Assembly: GCF_002252565.1 (NCBI RefSeq)
Contig: NZ_NPML01000018.1
Location: forward strand, 303,907 to 367,906
DNA: 64,000 bases
Direction of reading: 5' to 3'
Origin: Petroclostridium xylanilyticum
GTDB lineage: Bacteria > Bacillota > Clostridia > SK-Y3
Shown: piece by piece, positions 4,786 to 44,135 of the stretch
Position numbering within the stretch: the first letter of the stretch is position 1
Layout: every line of letters begins with the position of its first letter
The notes under the pieces: generated by a model
Told to the model about the DNA's origin: nothing
Seen by the model: the letters and a program-made list of their open reading frames with translations, nothing else
Database searches by the model: none
Made by a program: the position numbers and the translations under genes

Positions 4786-5367
4786 CTAATCTGTAGGTTC
4801 TATAATCTCTAACTTAAAGTTCCATCCTTCACAAGACATCATCATCCTACCGAATTCTTCTAGGCTGTATTCCTGACCGTCTATGATAAATTTGGGTGTT
4901 CTATCATCATATCTATCATCCCATTCAATACGTCCTTCTACTATATTACCTTTAAAAGAAATAAGTTCATGTCCTTGAAATACTTCTCTTTTTATGAACT
5001 TTTGTGATAATCCTTTTCTTATCTTTTTATAAAGCCTTTTTAAGGCATAATTTGAATCTTCTTCAAAATCCTGATGTACCTCAAAGGAATATCCTATTTT
5101 ATCTACCCCTGTAAACTCTACCGCTTCCCAACAAATACCTGTTGGATGAATTTTCTTTCTTATTTGAAAGCAGTGTTCTATTCCATCACAATCTTTAAAA
5201 GTTGCTTCTTTCTTAAAATTCTTATAGTCTTCAACTCCTAAAGCATCAGCCATATATCTGTTATAGCAGTCTTCACATATAGACTGGGGCGGCTCACCTT
5301 CTTTTATAGTTAATACTACCATGCCATACCCGCTAGAGTCTTTTCCACACCATTGACATCTATTCAT
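4786..5367 (-). CDS. Zinc-ribbon-containing uncharacterised protein
   Basis: A 193-aa protein with an N-terminal CQWC...CEDC tetracysteine site (residues about 4-7 and 31-34), likely a zinc ribbon. A domain rich in beta strands follows (TFKDCDGIEHCFQIRKK, WEAVEFTG, HELISFKGNIVEGRIEW), and then a short C-terminal helix region (FGRMMMSCEGWNFKLEI). The ATG is preceded by AAGGAGAG. It lies 42 bp downstream of the ADP-ribosylglycohydrolase gene on the same strand, so they may share a transcript. Family not named with certainty. Confidence 0.55.
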   Translation of the reverse strand: MNRCQWCGKDSSGYGMVVLTIKEGEPPQSICEDCYNRYMADALGVEDYKNFKKEATFKDCDGIEHCFQIRKKIHPTGICWEAVEFTGVDKIGYSFEVHQDFEEDSNYALKRLYKKIRKGLSQKFIKREVFQGHELISFKGNIVEGRIEWDDRYDDRTPKFIIDGQEYSLEEFGRMMMSCEGWNFKLEIIEPTD

Positions 5368-5409: not shown

Positions 5410-6300
5410 CTATACTTTCCTATTACCCTTTATTATCCTCTTTGCAATAGAAGTTAACTGCTCTTTTACCAATATCTTTCCCTTCCACCTGTCAGGGATA
5501 GCATCATAGCCATAGTACACCCCAGCCATTCCTCCTGTAATAGCGGCTATAGTGTCTGCATCTCCACCAAGGTTGGCTGCTTGGCATACGGCATCCTCAA
5601 AGGATGAGGTGTTAATAAAACACCATAATGCACATATCAAAGTATCAAACACATATCCCGTTGGCTTCAATTCATCTTTTGATAACTGGAATACCTGCTT
5701 ATATTCTGGATACTTTTCTATGTACTCTCTTATACAAGGCACTTTAGGCTTACCATTGAGATACTGGTAAACTAACAGATTATAAAACTGGCAGGCATCC
5801 GTTGCTTTCTGGTCATAATGGGTAAGCAGGCTTTGTGAAGCAGTTATCTCCAGCATTTTTTCAGCGTCATTATAATATAACGCAACTGGCAAGCATCTCA
5901 TAAGTGAACCATTCCCAGCACTCATACCACCTGTTGTCTGATGGGCGTAGTAGGCTGTTTTCATCCAGTCACTGCTTCGTTTATACTCGCTAAGTGCAAT
6001 TCGGATAATGTTGCCTATGTCCTTGGGTTTACTATCATACCATTTAATAAAGTGTTTTCCGATATCTCCGATAGGATTCTCTGGGTTGTCCAGGATGCCT
6101 TCTGCGACAGCAATAGTCATCATAGTATCGTCCGTCACTTCTCCAGGTGCTAAATCCCAACAGCCTCCACCTATAATATCCTTTAAATATCCATATTTCC
6201 TTTTAATCTCATCCTTTGAGATGAATTCCAGCGTTCCGCCAAGGGCATCTCCACAGGCAACGCCAAAAAGCCCTCCGAGTATGCGTTCATATCTATCCAT
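5410..6300 (-). CDS. ADP-ribosylglycohydrolase (DraG/ARH family)
   Basis: It hydrolyses the bond between ADP-ribose and a substrate such as a modified protein, nucleic acid or small molecule, using two metal ions. The hallmarks are present in order: GLFGVACGDALGG (residues 10-22), the metal motif T56-D57-D58 with TMM following, a helical core, and the C-terminal GGDADTIAAITGGMAG with its D-x-D-T metal ligands. The start at ATG 6300 (MDRYERIL) has AAAGGAAG upstream. At 296 aa it is full length. In defence islands such enzymes can reverse or provide immunity to ADP-ribosylating toxins, but no ADP-ribosyltransferase is seen next to it. Confidence 0.9.
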   Translation of the reverse strand: MDRYERILGGLFGVACGDALGGTLEFISKDEIKRKYGYLKDIIGGGCWDLAPGEVTDDTMMTIAVAEGILDNPENPIGDIGKHFIKWYDSKPKDIGNIIRIALSEYKRSSDWMKTAYYAHQTTGGMSAGNGSLMRCLPVALYYNDAEKMLEITASQSLLTHYDQKATDACQFYNLLVYQYLNGKPKVPCIREYIEKYPEYKQVFQLSKDELKPTGYVFDTLICALWCFINTSSFEDAVCQAANLGGDADTIAAITGGMAGVYYGYDAIPDRWKGKILVKEQLTSIAKRIIKGNRKV

Positions 6301-6333
6301 GAAACACACTTCCTTTAAACTCAGTATCTATGA

Positions 6334-6777
6334 TTATTTATTTGTGCAAAAGTATTTTGCAATGCTGCATATTGCTTCATCAAATTTATATTTCCAACCC
6401 TCATCTGTATCCTCTTTGCTGTTAAATGTAATTTCTTCTACCTTTTCTTCAAAAAGCAAAGTTAACCTATAGTCGCCATAATCATCTAAAGGACATTCAT
6501 AAGTAACACTCTTAATTTTGTTTATATTAAAATATTCTATAACTATATGCTTATCACCATTAATCGAAACTTTAATAAATTTGTTGTTCTTTAAGACAAA
6601 ATATAACTGTAAAGTTTTTTCATCAACAAATAAGTATTTTGGATAAAAATATAATATATCATTCTCATCAATTACTTGTGAAACTTTTTCAAACATACTT
6701 GCATATTTACGGTCGGTATTATTGTTGTAACGGTTGTTATAAAAGTAATCCTTAATTTCTTTAAAATCTACATTCAT
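6334..6777 (-). CDS. Hypothetical 147-aa protein
   Basis: An acidic, tyrosine-rich soluble protein (MNVDFKEIKDYFYNNRYNNN) with a beta-rich centre (LYFVLKNNKFIKVSINGDKH, RLTLLFEEKVEEITF). The overall shape resembles a PH-like or immunity-type small fold, but no motif is diagnostic. It starts 26 bp after the SEFIR gene stop and ends 34 bp before the glycohydrolase, so these three genes look like one transcription unit. Confidence 0.5.
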   Translation of the reverse strand: MNVDFKEIKDYFYNNRYNNNTDRKYASMFEKVSQVIDENDILYFYPKYLFVDEKTLQLYFVLKNNKFIKVSINGDKHIVIEYFNINKIKSVTYECPLDDYGDYRLTLLFEEKVEEITFNSKEDTDEGWKYKFDEAICSIAKYFCTNK

Positions 6778-6802: not shown

Positions 6803-7777
6803 TTAATGGTTTAAATATTGAACAATTTGTTTCCATATTTCAGCGGCAATTCCGTATGCATCACTCGCATTACTTCCCGTCATAAAATTCATTGTCATTT
6901 TTAATTTTAAATCTTTAGTTTTAGTTACTTCACATTCAACTACATCATTAAACGAATTATCGCTATCAATATTAAATCTTCCATATGACAAATAAATATT
7001 TTGATTTTTACCACTAAATAAATTTCCAAGCCAAATCTTAACTGCATACTTTTCCATACCGTTAATATAAAATCTCAATATAGTCTTTTGATTATGTACA
7101 ATATCTTTATCGTAATCAAAATTATTATTCTTTTGTTTGGTCTGTTCCGCAAATTCGTATAAAAGCGATAATATTTTAGAGTAACTTTGTTTCATAAATT
7201 TGTTTTTATCCAAATCCGTTATTTCTTTAAAATTGGGAATTATATTAGTAATTTCGTTTACTGTCCTATCATAAATAATTTTCTTTGATTTCAATTTGGG
7301 TTTGGCTCCTACCTTTGGTACATCAATTACATCTACCTGATAAATCCTATGCAGTAATTCATCAAACTTAATATCAAATTGGTCATCATGTGAAAAGTCA
7401 ATGAAATGAAACCCTTCCAAATAAAATGGAACAGCCTTTCTATAGTCTCCCTTATGCCTCATTATTAGAATTATCTTATCTGGATTATCTTTTATATATC
7501 GTATTAATAAATTTGTCTCATAGCCAACTCCGCCCTGGAAGGTGTCTGCTTTCTTAGCATAGTTTTCAGTAAGAATAAGTAAGATATTATCACTATTTTT
7601 TATTTTTTCTATCATCATCCTATTCAAATTAACAGTCTTACTTTGCGTTTCAAATTTATCAATCGTTGCATCAACACCGTTTTCCCTTAATTTAGCCGCT
7701 AAAACTGTTACCCAGTTTTCGTGTTCCTCACTATCCCAACTATAACTGATAAATACCGAAGGATGTTCTTTGGACAT
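6803..7777 (-). CDS. SEFIR/TIR-like domain protein
   Basis: Residues 5-150 form a TIR-superfamily SEFIR domain: PSVFISYSWDSEEHENWV at the N-terminus, then LRENGVDATIDKFE, MIEKIKNSDNILLILTENYA, and a late DFSHDDQFD segment. The remainder (about 170 aa) is a domain I do not recognise, ending in a beta-rich region that could sense a ligand. TIR-type domains in bacteria can be NAD-processing effectors or protein adaptors; SEFIR domains are common in phage defence islands. The location within 1.2 kb of a BREX operon supports a defence role by inference. Confidence 0.78.
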   Translation of the reverse strand: MSKEHPSVFISYSWDSEEHENWVTVLAAKLRENGVDATIDKFETQSKTVNLNRMMIEKIKNSDNILLILTENYAKKADTFQGGVGYETNLLIRYIKDNPDKIILIMRHKGDYRKAVPFYLEGFHFIDFSHDDQFDIKFDELLHRIYQVDVIDVPKVGAKPKLKSKKIIYDRTVNEITNIIPNFKEITDLDKNKFMKQSYSKILSLLYEFAEQTKQKNNNFDYDKDIVHNQKTILRFYINGMEKYAVKIWLGNLFSGKNQNIYLSYGRFNIDSDNSFNDVVECEVTKTKDLKLKMTMNFMTGSNASDAYGIAAEIWKQIVQYLNH

Positions 7778-7929: not shown

Positions 7930-8544
7930 TTAATTAACATTACTTCTTTTCAACAAGTTCCCTTCAATTATCTTTCTATCACTTCCATAAATCCAGTAAT
8001 CAATGTTGCTGGTTTCCCACGGGTAATATTCATTTCTTCTTTTTAAACGGTCCAAAACAGTATCCCCCAAATCTGCCTTTCTCTTTTCAATAGAAACAAA
8101 TGCAATCGGGATATCTTTACTTATGGCATATTCTTTTGCATCATGCCAATTATGCTTATACTTGTTTTCACCATTTGTATAATTGAGCATAACCAATAGG
8201 CCAAAAGCAATCCCATCATAATTTTTCGTGTTTTCCAAATAGGCTGCAATTGAATCTATCTTCTCTAAATATTTAACAACTGTTGTTTCTACTTCAACTA
8301 CTATAAAAGGCTTATCTCCTTTACATAATAGAATATCTGCGTTCTTTTGTCCTTTTCTTCCCTTGCCAACAAAAGGAGATGGGGCTCCATCCAACACAGA
8401 ATGGTCAGAGGACTTTTTAATCCATTCGCTTGACAAAAACCCTATAACAGAACTGTGAGAACTGCCGTACATTCTGGTGATAATACCCCAATAAAACATC
8501 CTGATAAAATTTTCTATAGAAGCAGAAATCATACTGTTCACCAT
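7930..8544 (-). CDS. PD-(D/E)XK-like nuclease-fold protein
   Basis: A 204-aa protein with NADILLCKGDKPFIVVEVET: an aspartate followed 13 residues later by E-x-E at the end of a hydrophobic strand, the spacing of PD-(D/E)XK endonucleases. An upstream helix (FIRMFYWGIITRMYG) and a later strand (IPIAFVSIEKR) fit the fold. The usual lysine of ExK is replaced by E-V-E, as in some restriction endonuclease-like families. It lies between the SEFIR gene and the BREX operon, on the same strand, and may be an accessory nuclease. Family call is inference. Confidence 0.55.
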   Translation of the reverse strand: MVNSMISASIENFIRMFYWGIITRMYGSSHSSVIGFLSSEWIKKSSDHSVLDGAPSPFVGKGRKGQKNADILLCKGDKPFIVVEVETTVVKYLEKIDSIAAYLENTKNYDGIAFGLLVMLNYTNGENKYKHNWHDAKEYAISKDIPIAFVSIEKRKADLGDTVLDRLKRRNEYYPWETSNIDYWIYGSDRKIIEGNLLKRSNVN

Positions 8545-8622: not shown

Positions 8623-8937
8623 CTATTTTACATCAAATCCCTGTTTTTTTAATCTCCTTACCATTTCTTCTTTTCCAGCGCAGTGAAGCATCTCTTCCCA
8701 AGTCTTAAATTTTGTTTTCTCACGAACCACTTTATCAAGTTCTTCTTGAGCAAGATTGTCATAATCCTCTTGAGTGTTTACTTCAAATCCTCCAAATTTA
8801 AAGAATTCCTCTATACTACTGAAATCCGTATACTTCTTCATGAAATCCTTATTGAATAATTCATTAAAATTTGCACGGCCATCTGCTTTTTTTACTTTCT
8901 TTTCAAGTTCTTTTAATTGTTTCTCAATACTGTTCAT
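8623..8937 (-). CDS. Small charged protein attached to the BREX operon
   Basis: A 104-aa, lysine/glutamate-rich, mostly helical protein (MNSIEKQLKELEKKVKK) with an N-terminal coiled-coil-like heptad region and the aromatic motif SIEEFFKFGGFEV. It begins 16 bp after the BrxHI stop with a GGAGGGG-type site just upstream, so it is probably the last gene of the BREX transcript. No known domain recognised. Confidence 0.55.
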   Translation of the reverse strand: MNSIEKQLKELEKKVKKADGRANFNELFNKDFMKKYTDFSSIEEFFKFGGFEVNTQEDYDNLAQEELDKVVREKTKFKTWEEMLHCAGKEEMVRRLKKQGFDVK

Positions 8938-8953: not shown

Positions 8954-11101
8954 TTAATAATAGATTTTTAATATCTTAATTTGATTTTCTTTAATAAATT
9001 CCTTTGTTTTCTCAAGGTCATAAATATAATCAAACAACTGTTTTCTTCTTAATTCCTGCGGTAAATATCTTTGAAATTTTGATGTAGTAATATCAGGTAC
9101 TCTTTCAATTAATTCTGTTATTTTGTCTTCCTCAAAGTAGTTTGGATTAGTTCTAATCTTATTTATTTCTTCCGATATAATATCAAAATTGATTTTAAAT
9201 TCTTTATCTCTGCATCGAAGTTTAAATCCCTTCCAAGTTACTCCTACAATATCATAATATCTATTAATTAAAGATAATACTGTTGCCAACGTATAATTTA
9301 CTCTATTCCCCGCATATGTATAAAAAATATAATCGTTTTTGCTTTCTTCAATAAGTATTTTACCTCTTTCTAATCCAAAACTTCTTTCTTCATAACGAAT
9401 TTCATCTAACAAATCAAGTTCCGTCTTATTTAAGAAATTGTATGCCTCATTTGACGTTAGTACATTTAAATACTCTTGAGCCAATTCAAATGATACAAAA
9501 CCACCTTCAGACATCCATTTTGGAGGTCGTGCATATTCGGCTTCAATAACATATAAAATACCTCTATCATAGTCAATTTTATCTGTTTGCCAGCACCTGC
9601 CTGCAAGCACAAACTGAAAATTATCCCCTAATGCATTTACAAACCATCTTTCTAAACTTCCTATAGGACGATTTTTATATTTAACTGTAAACTCTTTATT
9701 AGTATCAAAAGCAGAGTATAAGGTTATAAAATTCCTTGCCCCAAACTTTTTTTCTGTTTCAGTATCAATAAATATCTTTCCTCTTTCATACATCAAATAC
9801 TTGTTCTCCACCATATGCTTAATTAAAAACATAAAATCTTCTTTAGATACTTCTGAAAATGAGTATATATTTTTAAATAATTCATAAATGGATTCCAAGT
9901 CAGTTCCCATAGTTGATAAGGTAATTGCCAATATTTGTTGAAACAGTATATCATAAGCCTTTCTTACAAGATAAACATCTTCTACCCATCCTCTAATTGC
10001 TAAATTCAATATTGCAATTGAGAAAACAAGTTTCTCCTTATCGGTAGGGAAAAACACAAAATGTGCAATACTGTTCTCCCTTCTTCCCGTTCTACCAAGT
10101 CTCTGCAAGAAAGAAGATACGGAATTAGGTGAATCTAACTGCAAAACAATATCAAGGTCTCCTATATCTATACCAAGTTCCAGTGTACTTGTTGCTATTA
10201 TAGCAGTATTATTGCCTATCTTAAATTTTTCTTCTGCAATTTCTCTAAAATATTTATTAATAGAAGAATGATGCACATGACAATCTATACCACTACCTTC
10301 AATAAGCAGTTTTAATTCTTCTGCTGCTGTTCTGCTATTTGAAAAGAACAGTGCTTTTTTCCCAAAAATCCTTTTCGCAATCTCCTTCTGAAAATCATCT
10401 TTTGTCTCATCCACATACTTTATTTCAATTTTTTTAGGTTTCTTTTCTTTTGGAGGATTAATTACTATTCCTTCCCTAGTACTGCTTCCCTGCATCCACT
10501 TTAAAATTTCATGCGGATTTCCTACTGTTGCAGAAAGACCTATTCGTTGTATATCGAATTTTGAAAATGATTGTATTCTTTCAACAACAGCCATAAGATG
10601 GATACCTCTTTCACTATCCGCAAATGCATGTATCTCATCTATTACTATAAATCTTATATTTTTAAATAGTTCCTTTTTATCAACTTTTTGGCTCATCAAA
10701 ATCACTTCAAGGGACTCAGGGGTAATCATTAAAATTTGAGAAGGATTTTTATAGAACTTTCTCTTTTCGCTACTTTCTACATCCCCATGCCACTTAAAAA
10801 CATCCGAATATATAAAAGAAGAAAGTTTTTTCAGCCTTTCTTCCTGATTATTTAATAGTGCTTTTATAGGTGATACATAAATTACGGATATAGGTTCTAA
10901 TTTCTCTGAATATACTACGTTTAGTACTGGTAAAAAAGCGGCTTCTGTTTTACCTCCGGCAGTAGGTGCAAGAATAATAGCATTTTTACCACTTATAATT
11001 TCAGGGAAACTCAACTCTTGCACCGGCGTTAGATTTCTCCACCCCAATTTTGTTACAATTCCATTTTTAATTGGCTCACATAAGAGATTAAAGTTACTCA
11101 T
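8954..11101 (-). CDS. brxHI: BrxHI-type Lhr-like DEAD/DEAH helicase of BREX
   Basis: A superfamily 2 helicase of 715 aa. Features in order: Q28 in TPVQELSFP, Walker A APTAGGKTE (45-53), DEIH near residue 152, the SAT motif in GLSATVGNP, then the second RecA domain with STLELGIDIGDLDIVLQ and QRLGRTGRR. A C-terminal Lhr-like half follows. BrxHI helicases occur in BREX types 2 and 6 next to brxD, which is the arrangement here (11 bp downstream of brxD). Length matches the family. Its precise role in phage exclusion is not known. Symbol given by family and context. Confidence 0.85.
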   Translation of the reverse strand: MSNFNLLCEPIKNGIVTKLGWRNLTPVQELSFPEIISGKNAIILAPTAGGKTEAAFLPVLNVVYSEKLEPISVIYVSPIKALLNNQEERLKKLSSFIYSDVFKWHGDVESSEKRKFYKNPSQILMITPESLEVILMSQKVDKKELFKNIRFIVIDEIHAFADSERGIHLMAVVERIQSFSKFDIQRIGLSATVGNPHEILKWMQGSSTREGIVINPPKEKKPKKIEIKYVDETKDDFQKEIAKRIFGKKALFFSNSRTAAEELKLLIEGSGIDCHVHHSSINKYFREIAEEKFKIGNNTAIIATSTLELGIDIGDLDIVLQLDSPNSVSSFLQRLGRTGRRENSIAHFVFFPTDKEKLVFSIAILNLAIRGWVEDVYLVRKAYDILFQQILAITLSTMGTDLESIYELFKNIYSFSEVSKEDFMFLIKHMVENKYLMYERGKIFIDTETEKKFGARNFITLYSAFDTNKEFTVKYKNRPIGSLERWFVNALGDNFQFVLAGRCWQTDKIDYDRGILYVIEAEYARPPKWMSEGGFVSFELAQEYLNVLTSNEAYNFLNKTELDLLDEIRYEERSFGLERGKILIEESKNDYIFYTYAGNRVNYTLATVLSLINRYYDIVGVTWKGFKLRCRDKEFKINFDIISEEINKIRTNPNYFEEDKITELIERVPDITTSKFQRYLPQELRRKQLFDYIYDLEKTKEFIKENQIKILKIYY

Positions 11102-11112
11102 ATTCCTACCAC

Positions 11113-12393
11113 CTAAAAGTTAACTATGTGTGCAGTTTCCTTTTCTACTTCAACTGCTTTATTTATTAATTCATCATTAAATTTAAACTGCTCTTCAGGT
11201 ATATAGTCATCATACATCTGTGCCTTGTCTAATATATCAACAAAAACCCTTAAATAACCTCTTGGACCTACCTTAATTTCTCCTCCAAAGCCTGAAGTCA
11301 CTTCCTTGACAAGTTTCTCAATAAAATGCTCTGTAATTTTTAACTCTGGGTTCCAATTATAAACTTGTCCATGTATCTGCTTTACTTTTTGGGATATCTG
11401 AATTAATTTATCGTTATTAAATTTCTCAAGATAAATTAATGGTTGTCTTAAATTTCTATGTTTTTCATCTTTTTCTACTTTTACTCTTTGATAAATAGGT
11501 TCATAACTCTTAAAACCCTTCTCACTTTCCATCAACTCGTCAGTACCAGTATACAGAAAATAGCAGTTTGGAAATCCATTTCTATCTGTTTCATCAATGA
11601 AAAGCCTTAAATTTTCATATGCTTGGTCTCTCATATCTTTTCGTGGTAGTTTTTGCACCGTTTCAACTTCATCTAATATTATCACAAGGCCTTCATATCC
11701 TGTGCTTTTTATCATATGAAGCAATGCCCTGAAAAACTCAAATGAGTTCTCTCTTTTTACAGAACCAGTTACACCAAGTTTTCTCTTTATTTCTATGCCT
11801 ATATTCTCACCTTTTAACCACCCTACTGCAGCCTGGGCTAATATAGTATCGCCTTTATATTTAGCATTATAAAATGCCCGTATGGAGTTAGCAAATGAAG
11901 ATGCTATTGAACCTACAACAAGCAACTCCTCATTTATCTTCTTGTCCATAGCCTTTTTAAACTCTTCCTCATTGTCTTCAGGTGATATTCCTTCAATTGC
12001 TGAAACTTTATCCTCCAAATCTAAAAGCCATTCTTCAAGGATTATAGAAAAAGCAGGTATTTTCTTATTATCTGCTACTCTTAATCCCCCCATTATTTTT
12101 CTATATAATTCTTCAAAGTTATGTAACGGGGCTTCAGATGATATGACAACAGAAGATACAACAAAATTCTTGCTAAATGCCATTTCTCTAACTGCCGTAC
12201 TAAAAAATGTTTTACCTGAACCATAATCACCTATAATAAATTTAAATGCACTTTTATCTTTTCTTACATATTCCAACTGACTTTCAATCTCTTTTAATTC
12301 TTCATCAATGCCAACGGCAATATATTCTGTTCCTTCCGCTGGAACTGTGCCATTTCGAAGTGCATTTATTATATCTTTAAGAACTTCACTCAT
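11113..12393 (-). CDS. brxD: BrxD-like AAA ATPase (DUF2791) of BREX
   Basis: A 426-aa P-loop ATPase. ATG 12393 (MSEVLKDIINALRNGTVPAEG) has GGAGGTGG upstream and overlaps the end of pglZ by 8 bp, which supports coupled translation. Walker A is GDYGSGKT (residues 55-62), Walker B is GLVIILDEVE, and a sensor region follows (CYFLYTGTDELM). The N-terminal motif ALRNGTVP and the GxRGYLRVFVDILD stretch near the C-terminus are typical of the BREX-linked BrxD/DUF2791 family. It works with the BrxHI helicase in types 2 and 6. Confidence 0.83.
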   Translation of the reverse strand: MSEVLKDIINALRNGTVPAEGTEYIAVGIDEELKEIESQLEYVRKDKSAFKFIIGDYGSGKTFFSTAVREMAFSKNFVVSSVVISSEAPLHNFEELYRKIMGGLRVADNKKIPAFSIILEEWLLDLEDKVSAIEGISPEDNEEEFKKAMDKKINEELLVVGSIASSFANSIRAFYNAKYKGDTILAQAAVGWLKGENIGIEIKRKLGVTGSVKRENSFEFFRALLHMIKSTGYEGLVIILDEVETVQKLPRKDMRDQAYENLRLFIDETDRNGFPNCYFLYTGTDELMESEKGFKSYEPIYQRVKVEKDEKHRNLRQPLIYLEKFNNDKLIQISQKVKQIHGQVYNWNPELKITEHFIEKLVKEVTSGFGGEIKVGPRGYLRVFVDILDKAQMYDDYIPEEQFKFNDELINKAVEVEKETAHIVNF

Positions 12394-14860
12394 TCCATCC
12401 ACCTCCAAAGAGATTTTCAGTATTAATTTTATAAACAATAAACTCCCCTGCTGATGTTGTATCTATTATTTTAATTCCTGCCCCTTGCAATTTCTTTATA
12501 AATCTTCTCAACATACCATCAATCAATCCTGCATTCCCAAATTGATTCTTAAATATTTTTTCAATATCTTTTGTATTAAGAGAATTAAATCTATATAAAT
12601 TGGTTAAAAATACATGTTCTTTATCATTAATTTTGAATGGCAATTTCAATTTTTTGCCATCATGAAAGATTACTGTTTCTCCGGTACTATCTATTGTTTT
12701 AGTTACTGTATACGAAGTAAACTTACTACTTGGTAATGGCCTGGCATATATAAAAGGAATAATTACTTCTTCAATACTGCACCCACCATGACTGTAAAAA
12801 TCCTTTTCTCCTCCACCAATGAAATATCCTCTGTTAGTATAGGATAATATATAGTTATCAAGTGTTATACCATCTTCAAGTTCTATATAGTGTTTTGATT
12901 CTAAAAATCTTGGTTTCACAGTTGTTAAGCCATCTACATCTTTAATATTTATATATTCATCTACACGCATCATGCCGTGGTCTGCTGCTATTACTACACT
13001 TGCATTATCAGGTATCTTGTTAATAAGTGTCTTTATACTATTTTCAAAAACTTTTTCCTGCTTAGCATAAAACAAATATAAATCCTCTGTAGCCCTATGC
13101 CCGTCTTTATCAAACATATTATATATAAAAATATTAATCTTTTTATCTAGGAGCAAGTTCCCTTCGATATCATCCTGCTTTAAATAAGATTCAGATTTAG
13201 TCACATAAGTTACATTCTCTTTATTATTATCTATAATATTCCTGTATATGGCTTCTCTAGATATCGCTGTAATAGACGGCAAAAGTGAAAAAGATGATTT
13301 AATACTTGTTTCACGGTTTAACAAAATATCTTTAAAATACTTATAAACTACATTAATCCATGCATCATATCTCATTCCATCAAAAATAATGATAAATATT
13401 TTATCATCTTTCAAATCTACTATTTTCTCAATATCGCTGCTTAATATTGGTCTCGACGGTCCATAATCAGATGATATCCAGGACTTATAATTTTTAATAT
13501 AAAATTCCGCAAAAGTTTTTCTAAACTTGTTTAAAAGATTGCTAATTCTTCTATCTAAAGCAGCATATCTCCCCTTCTCGATTATATTCCATTCGTCAGA
13601 AAATCTAATTTTACTTAGTAGATACTGTAAATTTGACAGTTTATCTCTATATAAGTCCACCCAATCCGTATATAGATTTAAACTAGTGATTCTAACAGAA
13701 TCTTTTTCAATTGATTCTACTAGAGACATAAGTTCAACAAAATCATTAAAAAAACTCTTAACCTTATTTGTATTTTCAGTAGTATAAGGTATATCTTTTA
13801 GTGTTTCCTTTACTTCCTGAAGATTTTCCAAGCCGTATTTAAAAACTTTTTTTAGTCCTTCAATATTAAACTCCTTTATTATATTTCTAATCCCATCTAA
13901 AACGCAAATATAAGAAGTAATATTTTCTTTAATAAATTGTATGTGGTTCTGTTCTACAGAATACAGGTCTATTCCTGAATCCAATACCCACTTTTCCGCT
14001 CTATCTTTCATAGAGACAAATAATTTCTTGTCTTTCTTTTCGATAATCTTAACCTGTGTAACCAAGTCTTTATAATATCTTTCAAAGGCCTCTACTTTGA
14101 CAAATTCTAATCCTATAACCTTTTTGACATTGTCTCCATTTAATTTATTAAAAAAATCTAATATGTAGCAAGTCCACATCAGTTTCTCGAATTCATTAAA
14201 TACCCCTTGATTAATCACGCTGTGCATGAGTTCTCCGCCATTATCATAAAAGACTTTACAAAGTAATTCTTTTATATCTGTTGCATAATTCTTTTGATTG
14301 ATTCCACCATGCAATTCTATTATATTTTTATAAAATATATAACAATCAGCATCTCCATCAATCGATGTAGCATCCATGTCATATAAGGCAGATAGGACTA
14401 TCCTATCCACCTCCTCCATGTTAATCATTTTCTTCTTGAACTTCTTTCTGTAGTGAATAAGTTCATTAAAAATATTTCTAACATCAGAAACACTGTAATG
14501 ATTAATTCTTTCATGCCACAATAAATCTTCTTCTACAGTATCTAAAACATCTTTAATATCTATATTATTTACTCTTCCACCATCTGCTCTCTTAATAAAG
14601 TCTTGGAGTTTCTCTAGTAATCCTTCATTCTTGAGAGCAAATATATATCTATCCTCACATTTATGTTTTATGTGTTCATAATAGGCTCTAAAGATTACAT
14701 TCTCTTCAATAGATACTAATTTATATGGATAGATATAAACATTTATCTCATCACATCCATCCAAAACACCACTTTTATCAAGGTACATCATAAAGGGCTT
14801 TGAAAATGTAGTCTTTTTTTCTATAAACTTACCAAGATAATACTTATAACTATCCTCCAT
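12386..14860 (-). CDS. pglZ: PglZ, alkaline-phosphatase-fold protein of BREX
   Basis: An 824-aa protein with the PglZ core in its second half: FIIIFDGMRYDAW (D near 492), a threonine/serine-rich nucleophile region (SFSLLPSITAISREA), AADHGMM near 623 and SHGG near 687. These are the metal and phosphate ligands of the alkaline-phosphatase superfamily. PglZ is the common marker of all BREX systems and is needed for phage exclusion; its substrate is not established. The start at ATG 14860 has AAAGGAGGG upstream, better than an upstream in-frame start at 14878. It sits 25 bp after brxC. Confidence 0.9.
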   Translation of the reverse strand: MEDSYKYYLGKFIEKKTTFSKPFMMYLDKSGVLDGCDEINVYIYPYKLVSIEENVIFRAYYEHIKHKCEDRYIFALKNEGLLEKLQDFIKRADGGRVNNIDIKDVLDTVEEDLLWHERINHYSVSDVRNIFNELIHYRKKFKKKMINMEEVDRIVLSALYDMDATSIDGDADCYIFYKNIIELHGGINQKNYATDIKELLCKVFYDNGGELMHSVINQGVFNEFEKLMWTCYILDFFNKLNGDNVKKVIGLEFVKVEAFERYYKDLVTQVKIIEKKDKKLFVSMKDRAEKWVLDSGIDLYSVEQNHIQFIKENITSYICVLDGIRNIIKEFNIEGLKKVFKYGLENLQEVKETLKDIPYTTENTNKVKSFFNDFVELMSLVESIEKDSVRITSLNLYTDWVDLYRDKLSNLQYLLSKIRFSDEWNIIEKGRYAALDRRISNLLNKFRKTFAEFYIKNYKSWISSDYGPSRPILSSDIEKIVDLKDDKIFIIIFDGMRYDAWINVVYKYFKDILLNRETSIKSSFSLLPSITAISREAIYRNIIDNNKENVTYVTKSESYLKQDDIEGNLLLDKKINIFIYNMFDKDGHRATEDLYLFYAKQEKVFENSIKTLINKIPDNASVVIAADHGMMRVDEYINIKDVDGLTTVKPRFLESKHYIELEDGITLDNYILSYTNRGYFIGGGEKDFYSHGGCSIEEVIIPFIYARPLPSSKFTSYTVTKTIDSTGETVIFHDGKKLKLPFKINDKEHVFLTNLYRFNSLNTKDIEKIFKNQFGNAGLIDGMLRRFIKKLQGAGIKIIDTTSAGEFIVYKINTENLFGGGWNE

Positions 14861-14884
14861 AATAGCCCTCCTTTCCACACAAGC

Positions 14885-19501
<4,617 letters not shown>

Positions 19502-19505
<4 letters not shown>

Positions 19506-20284
19506 TTAACCACCTTCTCAACTAACTGTTCAAGGCTATCATATTTAAATTGATATTGGGAATTATCTCCCATTACATAGTTTTCAATATACCCTTCATC
19601 CATCATCCATTTTAAATATTTCTTAATCAAAGGTTCACTCATCAAAAAATATTTAAATACATCTGCATTTAAAATTACATCTGCTCTCGGCATCTTATTA
19701 TCTTTAATTTTTCTAAACTCATAGTATAAACAAAAAACAAGCGCCTCGTTAGTAGGTCTAATATTCCAATTCAATCTATACCTTTTTGCACTTGAAACTT
19801 TATCGCTAACTGCATTTAAAATTCCAAAATCCTTTAGTATGTTAACAACAACATTAAAAGTTTTTTCAACTGAACTCTCTTTTGCATCAGGCATTTTTAA
19901 TCTAAAATACTCAAGTAAATCCTTGCTTGATATCTCGTCCTTCAAATCCCCTTTAGCAAATGATTTTACACAATCACCAACACAAGTATGCTTTGTACAG
20001 GTAACATAATAAAGGACTTCTTTTTTAGACTGGTAATTGGTTATTTCATTTATATACTTCAGTAAAGGAGTATAAATTATATCGTTTCCTTCAGTTTCAA
20101 TAAAACGCTCAAAAAATCTTCTTCTATACTTCAGTGATGCCTTTTCTCCAAAGGGCATCACTGATTCAACATACTGCCTTACTAACTCTTTATTTCTATT
20201 ATGCTCTATATATCTTATGCAATCTAATGTTGTTTCTACTGGCACCTTCTCTGATAAAGGCAAAAACTTCTGTAAACCATTCAT
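19502..20284 (-). CDS. brxA: BrxA-like (DUF1819-type) BREX protein
   Basis: A 260-aa helical protein. ATG 20284 follows GAAGGTG at 6 nt. The order of segments matches BrxA: a region of basic helices (SLKYRRRFFERFI), a helical core with LLKYINEITN and a cysteine-containing helix, then a small winged-helix-like part (VNILKDFGILNA) and a C-terminal extension of about 80 aa that BrxA usually lacks. BrxA is a small DNA-binding protein of types 1, 3, 5 and 6. The identity is supported by position but not by a diagnostic motif. Confidence 0.6.
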
Positions 20285-20314
20285 CTTTATCACCTTCAAT
20301 TCTACATAGGTAAA

Positions 20315-23300
20315 CTATCTTCTAAAAGCCTTCTTAATTTGACTGTTAAAAATCTCTATATAATCTTCTTTATCTTTAATATTAAGTCCTTCAAATAATT
20401 TCAATATATCTCTCGCTTTTTTCTCGTTTGGATTTACTTCTGTATATTCCTTAATGGCATCAATAAAATATTCTTTATGAATTTCATCATCCCATTCAGA
20501 TAAACCATAATAATTGCTGTCATAGTATTTTACAAGGTCTTTTGGTTCTTTATCTGCATTTTTATTTTTAATATAACTATTCCATGTATCAGCAAATTCG
20601 TTTAGTGCTTCTTTCACTATGTCTTTTGATTTTTTAGTAGGATTATCTTTTCTCATAATGTTTATAAGTTCTTCAAAATTATGTAGTTTCTCTTTAAGAG
20701 TATTTCTAATATCATCAAGGCTAATATATTTCTTCTTACTTTTCAATATTTCAATTGCTTCGTCTTTTAAATACTCATTAACAACAGTATATAACTCTGA
20801 AAGATTATAAAATTTCCAAGGTTCATTTCCTCCATAGAGTCTTGCATAGTTTTCACGCAGCAAAGAAACAGTAACGAATTCGTAACCATATTTTTCTGCA
20901 ATTTCCTGTAAAGACTTGTTATTTATAATATGCTCTGTTATAAATTCGCTTGGCGTTAACTCATTCATAATATCTCTTAACGCCATATTAACTATCTCTT
21001 CTTCATTAACTACACCTCTATTTTTTCTTATTTCATATCTATAAGTTTCTTCTTTTATACCATAATTATTGTTCCTTAAATCTTTTTCAATCTCATATAT
21101 TTCTTCATACCCTAACCCATACATATAATAAATTCGCCTATTTATTTCATTTACACATTTTTCAATTTCCCTTTCTAATCTTGCCCTGTTTTTTATTTGG
21201 TGGAAAATGTCATCAATTTTTGTATTTATTAAGCAAATTTTCTCTTTTTTTAATTTTTTTATATTATTCATTATAGTTTTTGTACACTGTGATATCTTAT
21301 TTTCTTTGTCGTCCAAAATAATAGGTAGCCTCCCTACATAATGGCCATCCATATCCATGTTTAATGAAGAATTATTAAATATAAAATATTTTAGATAATA
21401 TGTAAGTAAGTTCGAATTAATTAATCCTATCATATAAAATAAATCAACTTTTATTCCTTTATCAAAGACTAAATTAGTTATAGTATCATAAGTAATGTCT
21501 TTATTATCTAGAATTGCTCCTATGATTCTAACTTTCGAGGATACTAATCTTTGTATACCAATCCTGTCGCTCATTTGCCTTAATATTTGATTTCTGTAAC
21601 TATTTAGTTGTTTATGGTTTATATCAATGTAAACGGAATCTCGAATATAATATCTTTCGATGTTTCTCCCGCCTAAAATCCTATATTGATGTTTATCATC
21701 ACAAGATAAAGATATAACTTCTATTTTACTTTGAATTGGTGCTCCTCTAAAAATGCTACATATTCTCTCTAATGGTAGAATCTCTTTATTGTTTTTAATA
21801 GAATTAAAAATGTTAATATTTTTATCATTTAAATACATATGCAATATATCTTTCTGTAAATATTCTTCTTTCACTAAATGGAAGTTTTCAAAGTTATCCA
21901 TTCTATAATTAAGTCTTGTATATATCATTGTATCTGTTTTTTCATTACTTTTTTTTATTAAAAAGATAGTTTGTTCTCCACCTACATCATCAAAAGCAAT
22001 CCCAACATCACATAGTGACTTAATATGATATTTAATTATTTCTTCTCTTATAGGTTTGTACGATTTTACCCAAGTAGTCACTTTGGGTATTATATATCCC
22101 AAACTTCCTAAATCTTTTAATCGTTTTAATCCTATGTATACAAAAATTGATGAAATATTTAATACACCATCCCTTAAAAAATCATACTGTCTCGATTTTT
22201 CTTTACTAATATTAAAATATGGTGGATTCCCAACTACATAATCATATTTTTTAGCCCAAAATTCACAAAGCCTTACTAACTCCTCTGCCTTATCCCTACT
22301 CAAAGTATCTTGTCTGTGTATTCCAGCCATATCTTTATAATTTATTGTAAAATAAAGACTATGATTTTCTAACTGTTGTTTTAAATCCTGCCAATCATAA
22401 TCCTCTTCCCATTTAATCAAACTGTCGCATTCCATGATGTTCAATTCATCTGTAAAATTTTCAAGGTCTTTTAGCAGCAGATTAATAGTAGTCAACTGAA
22501 CAGCAAAACTATCTATGTCCGCTCCAAAAATACAGTGCTTTAGAATGTGATAATGAATTCTATCCTTTACCCAGTATTCCTTACCCTTCATATTTTCATT
22601 TTTATATATATAATCTACATCAGCATATTTTTCTCTTAACCTATCTATGTTTTCTTCAAACTTCTTTTTCAATATATCATATGCCATAATCAGGAAATGT
22701 CCGCTGCCGCATGCAGGGTCTAAAACAGAAACAAAAGGATTTTCAACTACATCTGCTTCTGCAACCGTATTATTTAAAATATATTCAATAACAAAATCTG
22801 GAGTATAAAACTGTCCAATTGCTTTACGGGTTTCCCTGTCCATGAATTTTTCATAAACGTCACCAAGTATATTCCCTTCTGCAGGAACATTAAAGTCAAA
22901 TTTCGATGTATCAAGTTTTTCAATAATTTTAGCAACATTTTCCTCATAACTATAAATTGGTGTTTTTTTATATTCCTTGCTATCCAGTATAAACTTTAGT
23001 TCAAGTTCCTGTTTAGTAGGATTTAATTTCTCATATTTATCCTCTTTAAAAAGAGCAATATTTTTAAAGGATTCTTTCATATCAGCAAAAGCAAACTTTA
23101 GCAGTTCCCCAAAAGTATAATTGGAAATCAGGCTTATCCACTTATCTCTGCCCCTTGCAGATAATTTCTTCCCTATGTTAGGGTCTTTTGGCTCTCCCAT
23201 AATAAAATCTTCTTCAGGATTAAACATAAATCCTTTATCTTCACATATCCTTATAAACAAAACCTTGTTTATAAGCGTATAAGAAGTCCTATGGCAAAAA

Positions 23301-23494
23301 TTCTCATTCCACTTATCTTTATCATCCTTACCTATACCATTTTCTCTATACTCTTTTTCAATGAAATTTCTAAAATCTTCATTATTATCATATTTATATG
23401 CAAAAAGTTCCCTATATACGGAAACCATATTTTTATGAATCTGTTTTAATTCGTCTATTAAAGCATCCTTATTAAATATAACTGCTTCTTCCAC
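20315..23494 (-). CDS. pglX: PglX, BREX adenine-specific DNA methyltransferase
   Basis: A 1059-aa Eco57I-type methyltransferase. GTG 23494 has AGGAGG at a 9-nt spacing. Helical N-terminal domain, residues 1-200. AdoMet motif I LDPACGSGHFL near residue 260, preceded by IGQFYTPDFVIEYIL. Catalytic motif IV NPPYF near residue 425, giving N6-adenine methylation. A target-recognition region follows (about 520-800), then a helical C-terminus. PglX marks host DNA at a non-palindromic site and so distinguishes it from phage DNA. It is downstream of a lone paralogue of its own N-terminal domain (23510-24121). Confidence 0.92.
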   Translation of the reverse strand: MEEAVIFNKDALIDELKQIHKNMVSVYRELFAYKYDNNEDFRNFIEKEYRENGIGKDDKDKWNENFCHRTSYTLINKVLFIRICEDKGFMFNPEEDFIMGEPKDPNIGKKLSARGRDKWISLISNYTFGELLKFAFADMKESFKNIALFKEDKYEKLNPTKQELELKFILDSKEYKKTPIYSYEENVAKIIEKLDTSKFDFNVPAEGNILGDVYEKFMDRETRKAIGQFYTPDFVIEYILNNTVAEADVVENPFVSVLDPACGSGHFLIMAYDILKKKFEENIDRLREKYADVDYIYKNENMKGKEYWVKDRIHYHILKHCIFGADIDSFAVQLTTINLLLKDLENFTDELNIMECDSLIKWEEDYDWQDLKQQLENHSLYFTINYKDMAGIHRQDTLSRDKAEELVRLCEFWAKKYDYVVGNPPYFNISKEKSRQYDFLRDGVLNISSIFVYIGLKRLKDLGSLGYIIPKVTTWVKSYKPIREEIIKYHIKSLCDVGIAFDDVGGEQTIFLIKKSNEKTDTMIYTRLNYRMDNFENFHLVKEEYLQKDILHMYLNDKNINIFNSIKNNKEILPLERICSIFRGAPIQSKIEVISLSCDDKHQYRILGGRNIERYYIRDSVYIDINHKQLNSYRNQILRQMSDRIGIQRLVSSKVRIIGAILDNKDITYDTITNLVFDKGIKVDLFYMIGLINSNLLTYYLKYFIFNNSSLNMDMDGHYVGRLPIILDDKENKISQCTKTIMNNIKKLKKEKICLINTKIDDIFHQIKNRARLEREIEKCVNEINRRIYYMYGLGYEEIYEIEKDLRNNNYGIKEETYRYEIRKNRGVVNEEEIVNMALRDIMNELTPSEFITEHIINNKSLQEIAEKYGYEFVTVSLLRENYARLYGGNEPWKFYNLSELYTVVNEYLKDEAIEILKSKKKYISLDDIRNTLKEKLHNFEELINIMRKDNPTKKSKDIVKEALNEFADTWNSYIKNKNADKEPKDLVKYYDSNYYGLSEWDDEIHKEYFIDAIKEYTEVNPNEKKARDILKLFEGLNIKDKEDYIEIFNSQIKKAFRR

Positions 23495-23509
23495 TTAAGT
23501 TCTACCTCC

Positions 23510-24121
23510 TTACCGTATCCCAAGATTATTCAATAAAAAGTCAATTGCAGGTGAAGGTAATAAATACTTCTGGAGGTTCTCCCTCTCTTCAGAAGGATAT
23601 ATCTTTTCTACAACAGTGATAGCCGTATTGGGGTTCATAGTTTTAAAATCATAATCCTTTAATAATTCCAAATAGTTTTTCTCTCTATTCTGTGAAGGAT
23701 TGAAAATGCTTTTTAACCTTGAATAATAATCATCGTATGCAGTCTCTGCAAACGCCTTTCCTATTCCTTTTTCCCGTCTTAAATCATCACATGCAAATTG
23801 AAATAATTTTACATAGTCATTTCTGAAGTTTTTGCTCATCTCTCTCCATTTTGATATACCTTCAGCATTAAGTTTAGAATTAATTTTAAGATTTGTATCC
23901 TCAATTAAACGAATCAAAATATACTTAAAAACAATATGTACAGCAACCTTCAATTCTATATACCCTTTTATCTTGTCCTTACTAACTTTTCCACGATATT
24001 CCTTAAGAAATAAAGTCTCTTCTGCGCTACCTGTTATTGCACCCCTGATAGATTTTAAAATATCTCCTTTAAAATTAGTTAAAATTTCTATAAATTTATC
24101 TTTATTAGCACTAATATCCAT
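23510..24121 (-). CDS. Standalone paralogue of the PglX N-terminal domain; first gene of the BREX operon
   Basis: A 203-aa helical protein starting at ATG 24121 after AGGGGTG. Its segments line up with the N-terminus of the adjacent PglX: VFKYILIRLIEDTNL with NKVLFIRICEDKGF, LNAEGISKWREM with LSARGRDKWISL, KLFQFACDDLRR with KFAFADMKE, and AITVVEKIYP with VAKIIEKLD. It stops where PglX would begin its methyltransferase core. No catalytic motif is present. It may be a specificity or assembly subunit, or occupy the place of BrxE. The similarity is seen by eye; the role is inference. Confidence 0.6.
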   Translation of the reverse strand: MDISANKDKFIEILTNFKGDILKSIRGAITGSAEETLFLKEYRGKVSKDKIKGYIELKVAVHIVFKYILIRLIEDTNLKINSKLNAEGISKWREMSKNFRNDYVKLFQFACDDLRREKGIGKAFAETAYDDYYSRLKSIFNPSQNREKNYLELLKDYDFKTMNPNTAITVVEKIYPSEERENLQKYLLPSPAIDFLLNNLGIR

Positions 24122-24252
24122 AAAAACACCCCTGCTCATAAATCAATTATATAAAAATTGAGATTCAACCTTGCCTATATTCCTTATCAACTCTTATTAC
24201 TATTTCTTTTAATAATATTCGACAATTGTAATTAAAATCCTTTTAAATTTGA

Positions 24253-28485: not shown

Positions 28486-29553
28486 TTATTCAGTCTTTTC
28501 GTTTAACAGTTTTTTAAACATTCTTTCTATCTTGTTTTTAAACTTCTGCCTGCTTTCACTGGTGTTAATAATAGAATATCCTCTTTCCTTTCCACCCTTT
28601 ATCACTTCACCGTACCATACTTTAGAGGATTTTAGCAGGTCAAGTTCATTTATAAGGGGCAGATACTCCTTCCAATTTTCCTTTTCCCTTAGAACTTTGC
28701 TTATCGCCACATACCCGTAGAACATGAAGTTTTCCCCTAATAGCGATGTTTCCTTACTTTTCGCCCTCTTTTCGTAGTTATGAAGTTCAGGTATAATGTT
28801 TATCAGTTCATTGAAAAACTCTGCAAGGTATTTAGATAATTCCATCGCCTGAACCCTTGTCTCTAAATCCTCATACACTAATTGTATAGCATTTACCAAA
28901 GTTGCAAATGTAACAATATGCTTTTCGTCCTTTTTAGGTATTGAATTTCTTACCACTTCCACCCTACCAGCCAGGTCGCTACTTTTCATAAGTTCCCTGA
29001 CAATAATGTTTGCAAGTCCTGACCGATTGAAATACTCGGCACGACTGGAACTAATTTTAAGCCCTTGGGAGAATTGATGAAATTGCTGCTGGGCAGTCTG
29101 CACATCATAATTGGTGATTTTTACAGGGAATTTAAGTTCAGTTAAATCAAAGGCTGTATTCCCTTTTTCGTTTCCTTCGAGAATCATGGCCAAAGCCCTG
29201 ATTCTGTGCTGTCCATCGGAGATATTTATTTCACCGTCTACAGTAAGGTTCCCCTCCTCATCAAGTTCGACTTTTTCATTGCCATCTTCAAGCACATTTA
29301 ATGTAATCATATCTGTGAAATATTGGCCTGACAGCATAGAAGTATAGATTTTTTTCACATTGGCTTTGCTGTACACAGCAACCTCAGTTTCCGTATTGTC
29401 CTTTCCCCTTTTAACCTTTGTTCCTCTCTGAATCTCTGGGTTATATGTTATTATCCCATCCCTCCACATCTGCGCTAATTCCTGGCCATCAATAACAGTT
29501 TGATATTCCTTCTCACCTATCTGACTCACGTTCCTGAACACGTATTCCGACAT
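28486..29553 (-). CDS. DGQHR-domain protein (DndB-like)
   Basis: A 355-aa protein. ATG 29553 (MSEYVFRNVSQIG) follows GGGAGG, so the 40 codons upstream are probably not translated. The signature NISDGQHRIRALAMIL and the preceding NPEIQRGTKVKRG define the DGQHR family, whose best-known member is DndB, the transcriptional regulator of phosphorothioate DNA modification. No dndACDE genes are visible, so this is an orphan or belongs to a different modification system. It is 192 bp downstream of a YgjP-type metallopeptidase on the same strand. Confidence 0.78.
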   Translation of the reverse strand: MSEYVFRNVSQIGEKEYQTVIDGQELAQMWRDGIITYNPEIQRGTKVKRGKDNTETEVAVYSKANVKKIYTSMLSGQYFTDMITLNVLEDGNEKVELDEEGNLTVDGEINISDGQHRIRALAMILEGNEKGNTAFDLTELKFPVKITNYDVQTAQQQFHQFSQGLKISSSRAEYFNRSGLANIIVRELMKSSDLAGRVEVVRNSIPKKDEKHIVTFATLVNAIQLVYEDLETRVQAMELSKYLAEFFNELINIIPELHNYEKRAKSKETSLLGENFMFYGYVAISKVLREKENWKEYLPLINELDLLKSSKVWYGEVIKGGKERGYSIINTSESRQKFKNKIERMFKKLLNEKTE

Positions 29554-29745
29554 ATGTACTTTTCCTCCCTTGTTGTTTTTTACATTTATAATAATACAGC
29601 AAACTTTTCCAATACTAAAATTATGGACAATATTTTCTGGTTGTATTCTATCAGATATAGGTTTAAGGGACAAGGGAAAAGTTGATTGTGAATCTGTAAA
29701 ACTTATCTTAAATTCCTTAATCCTTTTACCCTTAACCCTGTAAAA

Positions 29746-33709: not shown

Positions 33710-33808
33710 TATGCCATAGTTCTAAAAATTATTTTTATACAAAAAAACTTGACTTTACAAACCATAATTCTGTATCCTGTTTAAAATCAAATGAAAGGAC
33801 GTGGTTAT

Positions 33809-34096
33809 ATGAAAGCCAAGAATTTAAAACAAGAAATTAAGAATATCCTTTCTGCAATAGACAAGAACTTTGGTAAAGACTCAAGGGAATACCAGGATGC
33901 CGAATATTACCTTGACATACTTGAAACTGTTTACCATTATAACTACAACGACGGGATAGACTTGCTGAATGAGTTAAAGCAATTGCTAAGCAACTTATCA
34001 GATAAAATGCCCGAACTGGCACCTGAAAGGTTCTCACAGCAATATCCAGATGTAAGTGAGATGATAAAATATCTAGAAGAATGGTTACCTGATTAA
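33809..34096 (+). CDS. Hypothetical 95-aa protein downstream of the primase
   Basis: ATG 33809 (MKAKNLKQEIKNILSAID) has AAAGGA upstream; the first in-frame ATG at 33791 lies inside that site. The protein is helical and acidic and ends MIKYLEEWLPD. It is 100 bp after the primase and is closed by a strong terminator. Unknown function; its position suggests an element maintenance gene. Confidence 0.55.
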   Translation: MKAKNLKQEIKNILSAIDKNFGKDSREYQDAEYYLDILETVYHYNYNDGIDLLNELKQLLSNLSDKMPELAPERFSQQYPDVSEMIKYLEEWLPD

Positions 34097-34104
34097 TATT
34101 TTTT

Positions 34105-34147
34105 AAAGGCTTTCAGTTTTTGCTGGAAAGCCTTTTTTATTTTTTTA
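34105..34147 (+). terminator. Terminator after the 95-aa gene
   Basis: AAGGCTTTCAG/CTGGAAAGCCTT stem with a 5-6 base loop, followed by TTTTTTATTTTTTTA. Confidence 0.88.
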
Positions 34148-34802
34148 TAAGATTCAATGGGTAAGAAAAAATAATGCTCATATTATTTATGATTAAACCT
34201 AGTTTCTCTTCACTCTAATCTAAAATTGCTCTTTACCTGTTCAAACTATGTTTTTAGAATCACTTTTTTGCTCGTTAAATCTTTAAAATCGTTTCTAAAC
34301 CCTTTACCTGTTTAAAACTATGCATTTGCTCTGTTTTTTATAGAAAAAGAATGATTTCTAATAATTTATCTTACTTATTTTCTTATAAGGAAAACATTTC
34401 TAAAATCGAGTTTTACACTTCATGCTCCTGAAAAGAAAATTGCTTTTTATACAAAATAGGGAAAGAAACTGCAACAAAGCAATCTCTTCCCCTATTTTGC
34501 CCATTTACCAACTACATTCTCCAGAATGCATTCTAAATATAGCATATCCTAAAATTATTTGTAAAGAAGTATACCTTTAATTTTAATTATCCTCGAATTA
34601 TAGTTCCTTTTAGTTCCTAACTTTTTATTCCAGTTCTTTTTGGGACTTTGTATTATGGAATAAGGAATTAGGAGAAAGGGGGCAAGGAGGAATAAGGCTT
34701 AACATAAGGAAATTTATGGCTTATTCAATGTCTCTCCACCTATACTTTTATACAAGAAAAAAGCAGGAAGTCTTAAACTTCACTGCTTGTAAAGGTTAAA
34801 GT
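34148..34802. other. 650-bp gap with repeats and hairpins
   Basis: It contains two direct repeats of TTTACCTGTT...AAACTATG (near 34230 and 34309), a hairpin CAAAATAGGG/CCCTATTTTG (34452-34499), TAGTTCC-type repeats near 34600-34650 and a purine-rich stretch near 34660-34700. The terminator of parR closes it. No gene. Confidence 0.5.
34755..34790 (-). terminator. Terminator of the parM-parR operon
   Basis: AAGCAG/CTGCTT arms with an inner GAAGT/ACTTC pairing; on the minus strand followed by TTTTTTC. Confidence 0.7.
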
Positions 34803-35093: not shown

Positions 35094-35097
35094 AAAA

Positions 35098-44119: not shown

Positions 44120-44135
44120 TATCTCAGCCCCCCTT

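Follow-up and report, generated by a model that had tools for sequence, protein, structure and literature searches.

Does a bacteriophage exclusion (BREX) operon that combines BrxF with BrxD and BrxHI belong to one of the published BREX types, has it been assembled recently from several of them, or does it represent a lineage of its own? The question is raised by a 64,000-nucleotide stretch of the Petroclostridium xylanilyticum genome (contig NZ_NPML01000018.1, positions 303,907 to 367,906; hereafter the window), in which nine co-directional genes on the minus strand run from 24139 (or from an internal ATG at 24121) to 8623 as one tight operon with intergenic gaps of −53 to +16 bases. In order, they encode a protein of 203 or 209 amino acids (aa), a PglX-like methylase, a 265-aa protein, BrxF, BrxC, PglZ, BrxD, BrxHI and a 104-aa protein. 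PglZ and BrxC in one operon, a DNA-modifying enzyme (usually an N6-adenine methylase) and a BrxB/BrxF-like P-loop protein are features of the BREX family as a whole, and all of them are found among the predicted products of the operon. The first eight genes occur in the same order in four genomes, so the gene set is not a matter of chance. Our reading is that the operon probably encodes a restriction-modification-like BREX system directed against phages and belongs to a lineage that none of the published types includes.

Components of the operon

At the level of predicted proteins, the identities of BrxD (PADLOC E 9e-111; PF10923 E 3e-117; NCBIfam BrxD 367 bits, cut-off 350) and BrxHI (PADLOC E 2e-209) are unmistakable, and the methylase, BrxC and PglZ, though identifiable, stand far from known families. 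BrxC matches its PADLOC model at E 2e-10 over the N-terminal AAA+ part and carries the Walker A motif GLPGCGKS; it had no match to Pfam DUF6079 or DUF499 at 0.01 and matched DUF6079-bearing relatives strongly (E 1e-44 to 1e-111). PF08665 (E 1e-12) is the sole domain of PglZ, which matched the PglZ models of BREX-3 (E 2e-12) and BREX-4 (E 3e-9) below cut-off and whose catalytic residues D500, T537, D590, D633, H634 and H697 are invariant in comparison with types 1, 2, 3 and 6.

The methylase is an N6-adenine enzyme of the Eco57I/TaqI type (PF07669 (Eco57I)/N6_Mtase, E 6e-21, also TaqI_C) with intact motifs I (DPACGSGHF) and IV (NPPY). It matched the NCBIfam BREX PglX models below cut-off in every case, so the name PglX rests on position and class; BLASTP comparison with a type 3 PglXI gave E 7.6. 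Between loci, it is mostly 80-98% identical at its ends (the first 400 residues and the last 110), and only 8-30% over most of residues 450-850. The recognition region spans about residues 427-930, and the variable part follows NPPY, i.e. it lies after the catalytic domain and is not inserted into it. The predicted recognition domain is exchanged between loci while the ends are retained, as a specificity determinant would be, and this exchange suggests selection on specificity.

The 152-aa protein matched the PADLOC BrxF model (E 5e-7) and, in hhalign comparison with a profile built from five BREX-3 loci, BREX-3 BrxF (probability 95, E 2.4e-8, 122 residues). BrxB was rejected as its identity by the same profile-profile approach (E 0.47, no match). 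Its Walker A motif (G-E-H-M-S-G-K-T) is complete in all four loci, and it lacks the cap insert that precedes the C-terminal strand in BREX-3 BrxF.

A BrxA-like DNA-binding protein and a BrxB/BrxF-like P-loop protein are described as core components of BREX in PMC12839542, which also terms DUF4007/SspB proteins BrxA-like. The 265-aa protein had no family match by sequence in PADLOC, Pfam or NCBIfam and none by sequence in the PDB, and sequence comparisons with DUF1819 BrxA, BREX-3 BrxA and BrxB were set aside as unconvincing (best E 0.009 over 59 residues). Its AlphaFold2 model (mean predicted local distance difference test score, pLDDT, 67.5) has a helical N-terminus followed by two winged-helix units. 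The best fold match was SspB (6juf/6lb9; Z 11.7/11.5 over 228-233 of the 265 residues, root-mean-square deviation 4.0), and the remaining matches were mostly single-domain with Z of 9.4 or less. The model supports, without proving, a BrxA-like nature by fold and not by sequence.

The 104-aa gene, which lies 16 bases after BrxHI and occurs at three of the four loci, matches phrog_2211 (E 2e-16) and proteins in 24 phage records; it resembles short stretches of phage proteins (47% identity in Geobacillus phage phiOH2), is 85-92% identical in two relatives and is absent from the most distant one (G483, below). A scan of the locus for promoters and terminators gave no excess over shuffles.

The original prediction for this locus, made from the DNA letters without database searches, had described eight tightly spaced, overlapping genes between 8954 and 24121, with no BrxB, BrxL or PglW. 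All the proteins it named are present and co-directional. Of the overlaps only that between the 265-aa gene and BrxF (4 bases) is firm; those of BrxF with BrxC and of PglZ with BrxD disappear with downstream ATG starts conserved in the relatives. Position 24121 proved to be the start conserved in relatives (203 aa; the longest reading frame, from 24139, gives 209 aa), and the extent has to be enlarged by the ninth gene. Scans with PADLOC, Pfam and NCBIfam found no BrxB, BrxE, BrxL, BrxHII or PglW among the operon proteins, nor BrxB or BrxL in the scanned flanks, where no large kinase protein of the PglW kind was seen among the scanned proteins either, in agreement with the predicted absences. 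The call of the 265-aa protein as BrxA-like stands on its SspB-like predicted fold and gained no support from sequence, and the 152-aa protein is a BrxF, as it had been called, and not a BrxB.

Table 1. Genes of the operon in window coordinates, in order of transcription
Gene product	Position	Strand	Length and basis
First gene, predicted paralogue of PglX N-terminal helical domain	23510..24139	-	209 aa; BLASTP, hhalign
PglX-like N6-adenine DNA methyltransferase	20315..23494	-	1059 aa; PF07669, N6_Mtase, TaqI_C
BrxA-like DNA-binding protein (predicted)	19502..20299	-	265 aa; predicted fold only
BrxF-like small P-loop protein	19047..19505	-	152 aa; PADLOC BrxF, hhalign
BrxC AAA+ ATPase	14885..19054	-	1381 aa from conserved ATG 19030; PADLOC BrxC
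PglZ, predicted metal-dependent nuclease	12386..14878	-	824-830 aa; PF08665
BrxD ORC/Cdc6-type ATPase	11113..12438	-	426 aa from ATG conserved with G483; PF10923, NCBIfam BrxD
BrxHI Lhr/Ski2-type helicase	8954..11101	-	PADLOC BrxHI; DEAD, Helicase_C, WH_Lhr
Accessory gene, phage-protein-related	8623..8937	-	104 aa; phrog_2211

A predicted free-standing PglX N-terminal domain

The first gene, kept in all four loci, matched the operon's own PglX by BLASTP (E 1e-5), and the match was repeated with the other loci. Against the N-terminal domain of PglX, hhalign scored 45.8 across 195 collinear residues; the highest of 300 column shuffles reached 22.2, the reversed profile 13.5 and the other operon proteins about 23 or less. 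The matched region includes the GQFYTP segment and ends directly before methylase motif I. When the first gene was used as a blind query against 72,556 plasmid records, the single match was an N-6 DNA methylase (E 8e-5). An HMMER profile of the first gene remained below threshold against PglX, and the homology therefore rests on BLASTP, on hhalign with its shuffles and on the blind plasmid match. Comparison with the PDB gave nothing by sequence or fold, the model (pLDDT 58) having no fold match beyond helical-bundle noise. The first gene was also compared with BrxE, which opens type 6 operons, and that identity was ruled out, there being no similarity.

By these comparisons the first gene is a free-standing paralogue of the helical domain at the N-terminus of PglX, without a methylase domain. 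In PglX and in type I methylases such as M.EcoKI this domain is attached to the methylase, whereas here it forms a separate protein that aligns with the copy in the PglX of its own operon. A literature search, covering PMC12839542 without its supplements, turned up no BREX system for which a free-standing PglX N-terminal domain had been described.

Position among BREX types, relatives and the carrying element

With BrxC as query, whole-genome searches located three further genomes that have the eight core genes in this order: Lutispora thermophila DSM 19022 (G058), G148, which belongs to the same class but to a third family, and G483, which belongs to another class. Their BrxC proteins are 96%, 87% and about 48-49% identical, respectively, to that of the window. 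BrxC searches of the orders to which G148 and G058 belong, and of the classes of G483 and G573, gave no further loci. A profile scan of genome contigs with the BrxC alignment recovered the Lutispora locus only; its patterns were poor and it is no measure of rarity. Searches of plasmids with BrxC and PglZ, of phages with BrxC and of viral contigs with BrxF and PglX gave no match. BrxF-like matches occurred in 57 of 358 genomes of the phylum, and in none of the 20 of these whose BrxF neighbourhoods were read did BrxD or BrxHI lie beside BrxF.

We built trees of BrxC, PglZ, BrxD and BrxHI with plasmid-derived references of types 1, 2, 3 and 6, a sparse sample that leaves out types 4 and 5. In each, the four loci form one fully supported clade that is nested in no sampled type, and the identities of the operon proteins to known types are only 20-39%. 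Grouping with type 6 was rejected by the approximately unbiased (AU) test (BrxC p 5e-63, PglZ p 6e-4), as was grouping of PglZ with type 1 (p 5e-4). Markers of types 4 and 5 (PAPS reductase with BrxL; a second BrxC with BrxHII) were not seen in the operon, and those of the BREX-related BR 1-3/BRC systems (DUF499 ATPase; HerA/FtsK) had no Pfam match in the operon or scanned flanks.

BrxF is a type 3 component, and BrxD and BrxHI are a type 2 dyad (PMC12839542), much as in the original prediction, which gave the pair to types 2 and 6. Type 3 (BrxF, BrxC, PglXI, BrxHII, PglZ, BrxA-like) shares with the window BrxF adjoining BrxC, a predicted tripartite DNA-binding protein and a PglZ that is weakly closest. 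The differences are that the recognition region of PglXI is inserted in the catalytic fold whereas here it follows the catalytic domain; that type 3 has BrxHII whereas here BrxHI (WH_Lhr) and BrxD are found; that type 3 BrxF has the cap insert whereas here it has no insert and an intact Walker A; that the N-terminal domain of PglX is present a second time in the operon; and that BrxC and PglZ of the window fall outside the type 3 clade, as its sister at most. A recent mosaic, in which BrxF, BrxC and PglZ of type 3 recombined with a BrxD-BrxHI pair of type 2 or 6, would account for the gene content, for the weakly supported place of PglZ beside type 3 (81/84), for the grouping of BrxC with type 3 that was not rejected (p 0.08) and for BrxD and BrxHI being nearest to type 6/2 and to two-gene cassettes. 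We nevertheless regard it as unlikely, given that no gene lies inside a known type, that identities to those types are low and that the G483 proteins have diverged from those of the window jointly (PglZ 38% and BrxD and BrxHI each 61% identical, next to the BrxC value above), so the gene set was joined before that split.

Type 6 (BrxE, BrxA, BrxB, BrxC, PglX, PglZ, BrxD, BrxHI) has the same PglZ-BrxD-BrxHI order at the operon's 3' end, but it also has BrxE, DUF1819 BrxA and DUF1788 BrxB, which the window operon lacks although the models for all three do detect these genes in a true type 6 locus; the window methylase, moreover, is upstream of BrxC. Type 2, or Pgl (PglW, PglX, PglY, PglZ, BrxD, BrxHI), shares the BrxD and BrxHI pair and has PglW, whereas the window operon is without PglW but has separate BrxF and BrxA-like genes. 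We think it very unlikely that the operon diverged from a type 6 or type 2 locus by the substitution of BrxF for BrxB or PglW: the PglZ-BrxD-BrxHI order occurs in both types and grouping of PglZ with type 2 was not firmly rejected (p 0.059), but BrxE, DUF1819-type BrxA, BrxB and PglW are all missing, type 6 is rejected for both BrxC and PglZ, and type 2 is borderline for BrxC (p 0.048) and BrxHI (p 0.036). Least credible of all is a decayed or inactive defence island on a transposon. For it speak the small number of loci and the methylase gene of G483, which is interrupted by an insertion on the opposite strand that carries IS3-like transposase genes (L039:18609-20000, L040:1-3655). Against it, the three close loci have every one of the eight core frames open and, the methylase recognition domain apart, 83-98% conserved; catalytic residues are kept, and the exchange of recognition domains suggests selection on specificity.

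What these comparisons favour, with fairly high probability, is a separate BREX-type lineage with an unlisted gene set that would be old and not a recent patchwork. The original prediction had suggested an unlisted subtype, and this is supported by the BrxF, BrxD and BrxHI set and by its own clade; its description as mosaic does not hold, with no gene nested in a known type and four loci in agreement on an old lineage with a combined set. A type 6 locus, one of the two outcomes that it had named as undoing its claim, is excluded by the missing BrxE and BrxB and by the AU test, and the same gene order, which it proposed to look for elsewhere, was found in the three other genomes. No paper found uses 'BREX type 7' or a like name; an earlier listing in the supplements of PMC12839542 is possible.

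BrxC is 96% and 87% identical in G058 and G148 while the host DnaX proteins are only 46% and 43% identical to that of the window's host, so the operon has moved by horizontal transfer among distantly related Clostridia. The genes neighbouring the operon are common to the relatives as well. About 27-33 kb beyond the window's left edge lies a set of TnsA, TnsB, TnsC and TnsD genes (G000:C18 about 270647-277018; L152:6648-13019), of which TnsA, TnsC (TniB/AAA) and TnsD were called by Pfam and TnsB by its size, its place in the gene order and a match to Mu-transpos_C, and a TnsD fragment lies to the right of the operon at 47551-48237. A Tn7-like element is likely to carry the island. The Tns set is 89-98% identical in G058 and 39-53% in G148, and owing to the latter low identity the operon in G148 may sit in a different element.

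Several genes near the operon are defence-like: an ADP-ribosylglycohydrolase (5410-6309), a DUF7685/7686/7713 protein (4786-5367), a TIR/SEFIR protein (6803-7777) that adjoins a DUF3908 protein (6334-6777), a MazF-like toxin (776-1279) and a protein of 204 aa with weak likeness to HSDR_N (7930-8544). The window also encodes a DndB-like protein (28486-29673; PF14072, E 4e-53) that is 86% identical in Lutispora and around which the scanned proteins included no match to other Dnd genes. Plasmid- or phage-like genes inside the element (31643-36009) encode a DnaG-like primase and a ParM/actin-like partition protein with a 96-aa neighbour. Within 38543-45556, a 1374-aa protein without Pfam or PHROG match (38543-42667) lies beside an ATP-grasp (RimK) protein and two unknowns.

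In other genomes of the phylum we observed a two-gene cassette of a ~330-350-aa TPR-repeat protein beside a 1350-1850-aa BrxC-like DUF6079 protein (L041, L043, L044, L047, L050 (L050:5933-11814), L051 and L053). These cassettes contain the nearest relatives found of the window's BrxC (BLASTP E 4e-87); they differ from the operon in having two genes only, with no separate matching PglZ, BrxD, BrxHI or methylase seen alongside. Two of them, L051 and L053, have a BrxC-like protein with a PglZ-like domain fused to its C-terminus. TPR is not mentioned in PMC12839542. Elsewhere, an N6/N4 methylase, a protein weakly like the 265-aa gene product and BrxC stand in a row (L052:6065-12659, G537), possibly another BREX-related system. 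An Aulosira plasmid (L088:19093-23646) has a second BrxD-like/BrxHI-like pair immediately behind a type 6 BREX, and a Deinococcus plasmid (L090:12725-27047) has tandem near-copies of a BrxD-BrxHI-HNH cassette.

Proposed mechanism and significance

All functional steps proposed here draw on homology with type 1 work (PMC11842806, PMC11974810, PMC13326643). In type 1, BrxB bridges BrxC and PglZ, and BrxA curbs DNA binding by BrxC (PMC13326643); and PglZ is a metal-dependent nuclease (PMC11974810). BrxD has been proposed as the loader of BrxHI (PMC12839542). By analogy, PglX with BrxC, BrxF and PglZ would methylate adenine at an asymmetric host site, the exchangeable recognition domain aiming PglX. 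BrxF would be the BrxC-PglZ bridge, as the counterpart of type 1 BrxB, and the SspB/BrxA-like 265-aa protein would bind DNA and tune BrxC. When it met unmarked phage DNA, this complex would switch to restriction, with BrxD loading or activating the BrxHI helicase and PglZ nicking or cutting the exposed DNA; BrxD-BrxHI would take the place of BrxL, which would then not be needed.

PglX has no activity by itself. Inhibition or docking has been suggested as the function of its N-terminal domain (PMC11842806, PMC12839542), which would be among the cis-inhibitory elements that partners relieve (PMC11842806). The free copy might dock at the site of that domain, or pair with it as type I methylase domains do, and might thereby set the balance between methylation and restriction. 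We offer this role for the first gene tentatively. It is likewise a possibility, and a somewhat doubtful one, that the operon represents a further BREX type defined by a trans-acting free methylase N-terminal domain that competes or pairs within the BrxC-BrxF-PglZ complex and so switches between marking and restriction.

Several points weigh against our interpretation of the operon. There are only four loci, of common ancestry, and three of them are very close. The methylase reaches the cut-off of no BREX PglX model, and in PADLOC it is matched best by a type II methylase. Walker A is intact in this BrxF, while BrxF/BrxB are described as inactive, and the likeness of the 265-aa protein to BrxA depends on a model of modest mean pLDDT. 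The first gene could be degenerate, and the role assigned to it is a guess.

What decides whether BREX methylates self DNA or restricts phage DNA is an open question. With the PglX N-terminal domain apparently on a separate gene that is kept across two bacterial classes, the deletion of a single small gene offers a test of what the domain does. The combination of BrxF with BrxD-BrxHI separates the sensing or bridging part of the system from the type-defining helicase part and suggests that the published BREX classes are incomplete. The near-identical operons with exchanged recognition domains would provide ready-made pairs for a readout of specificity.

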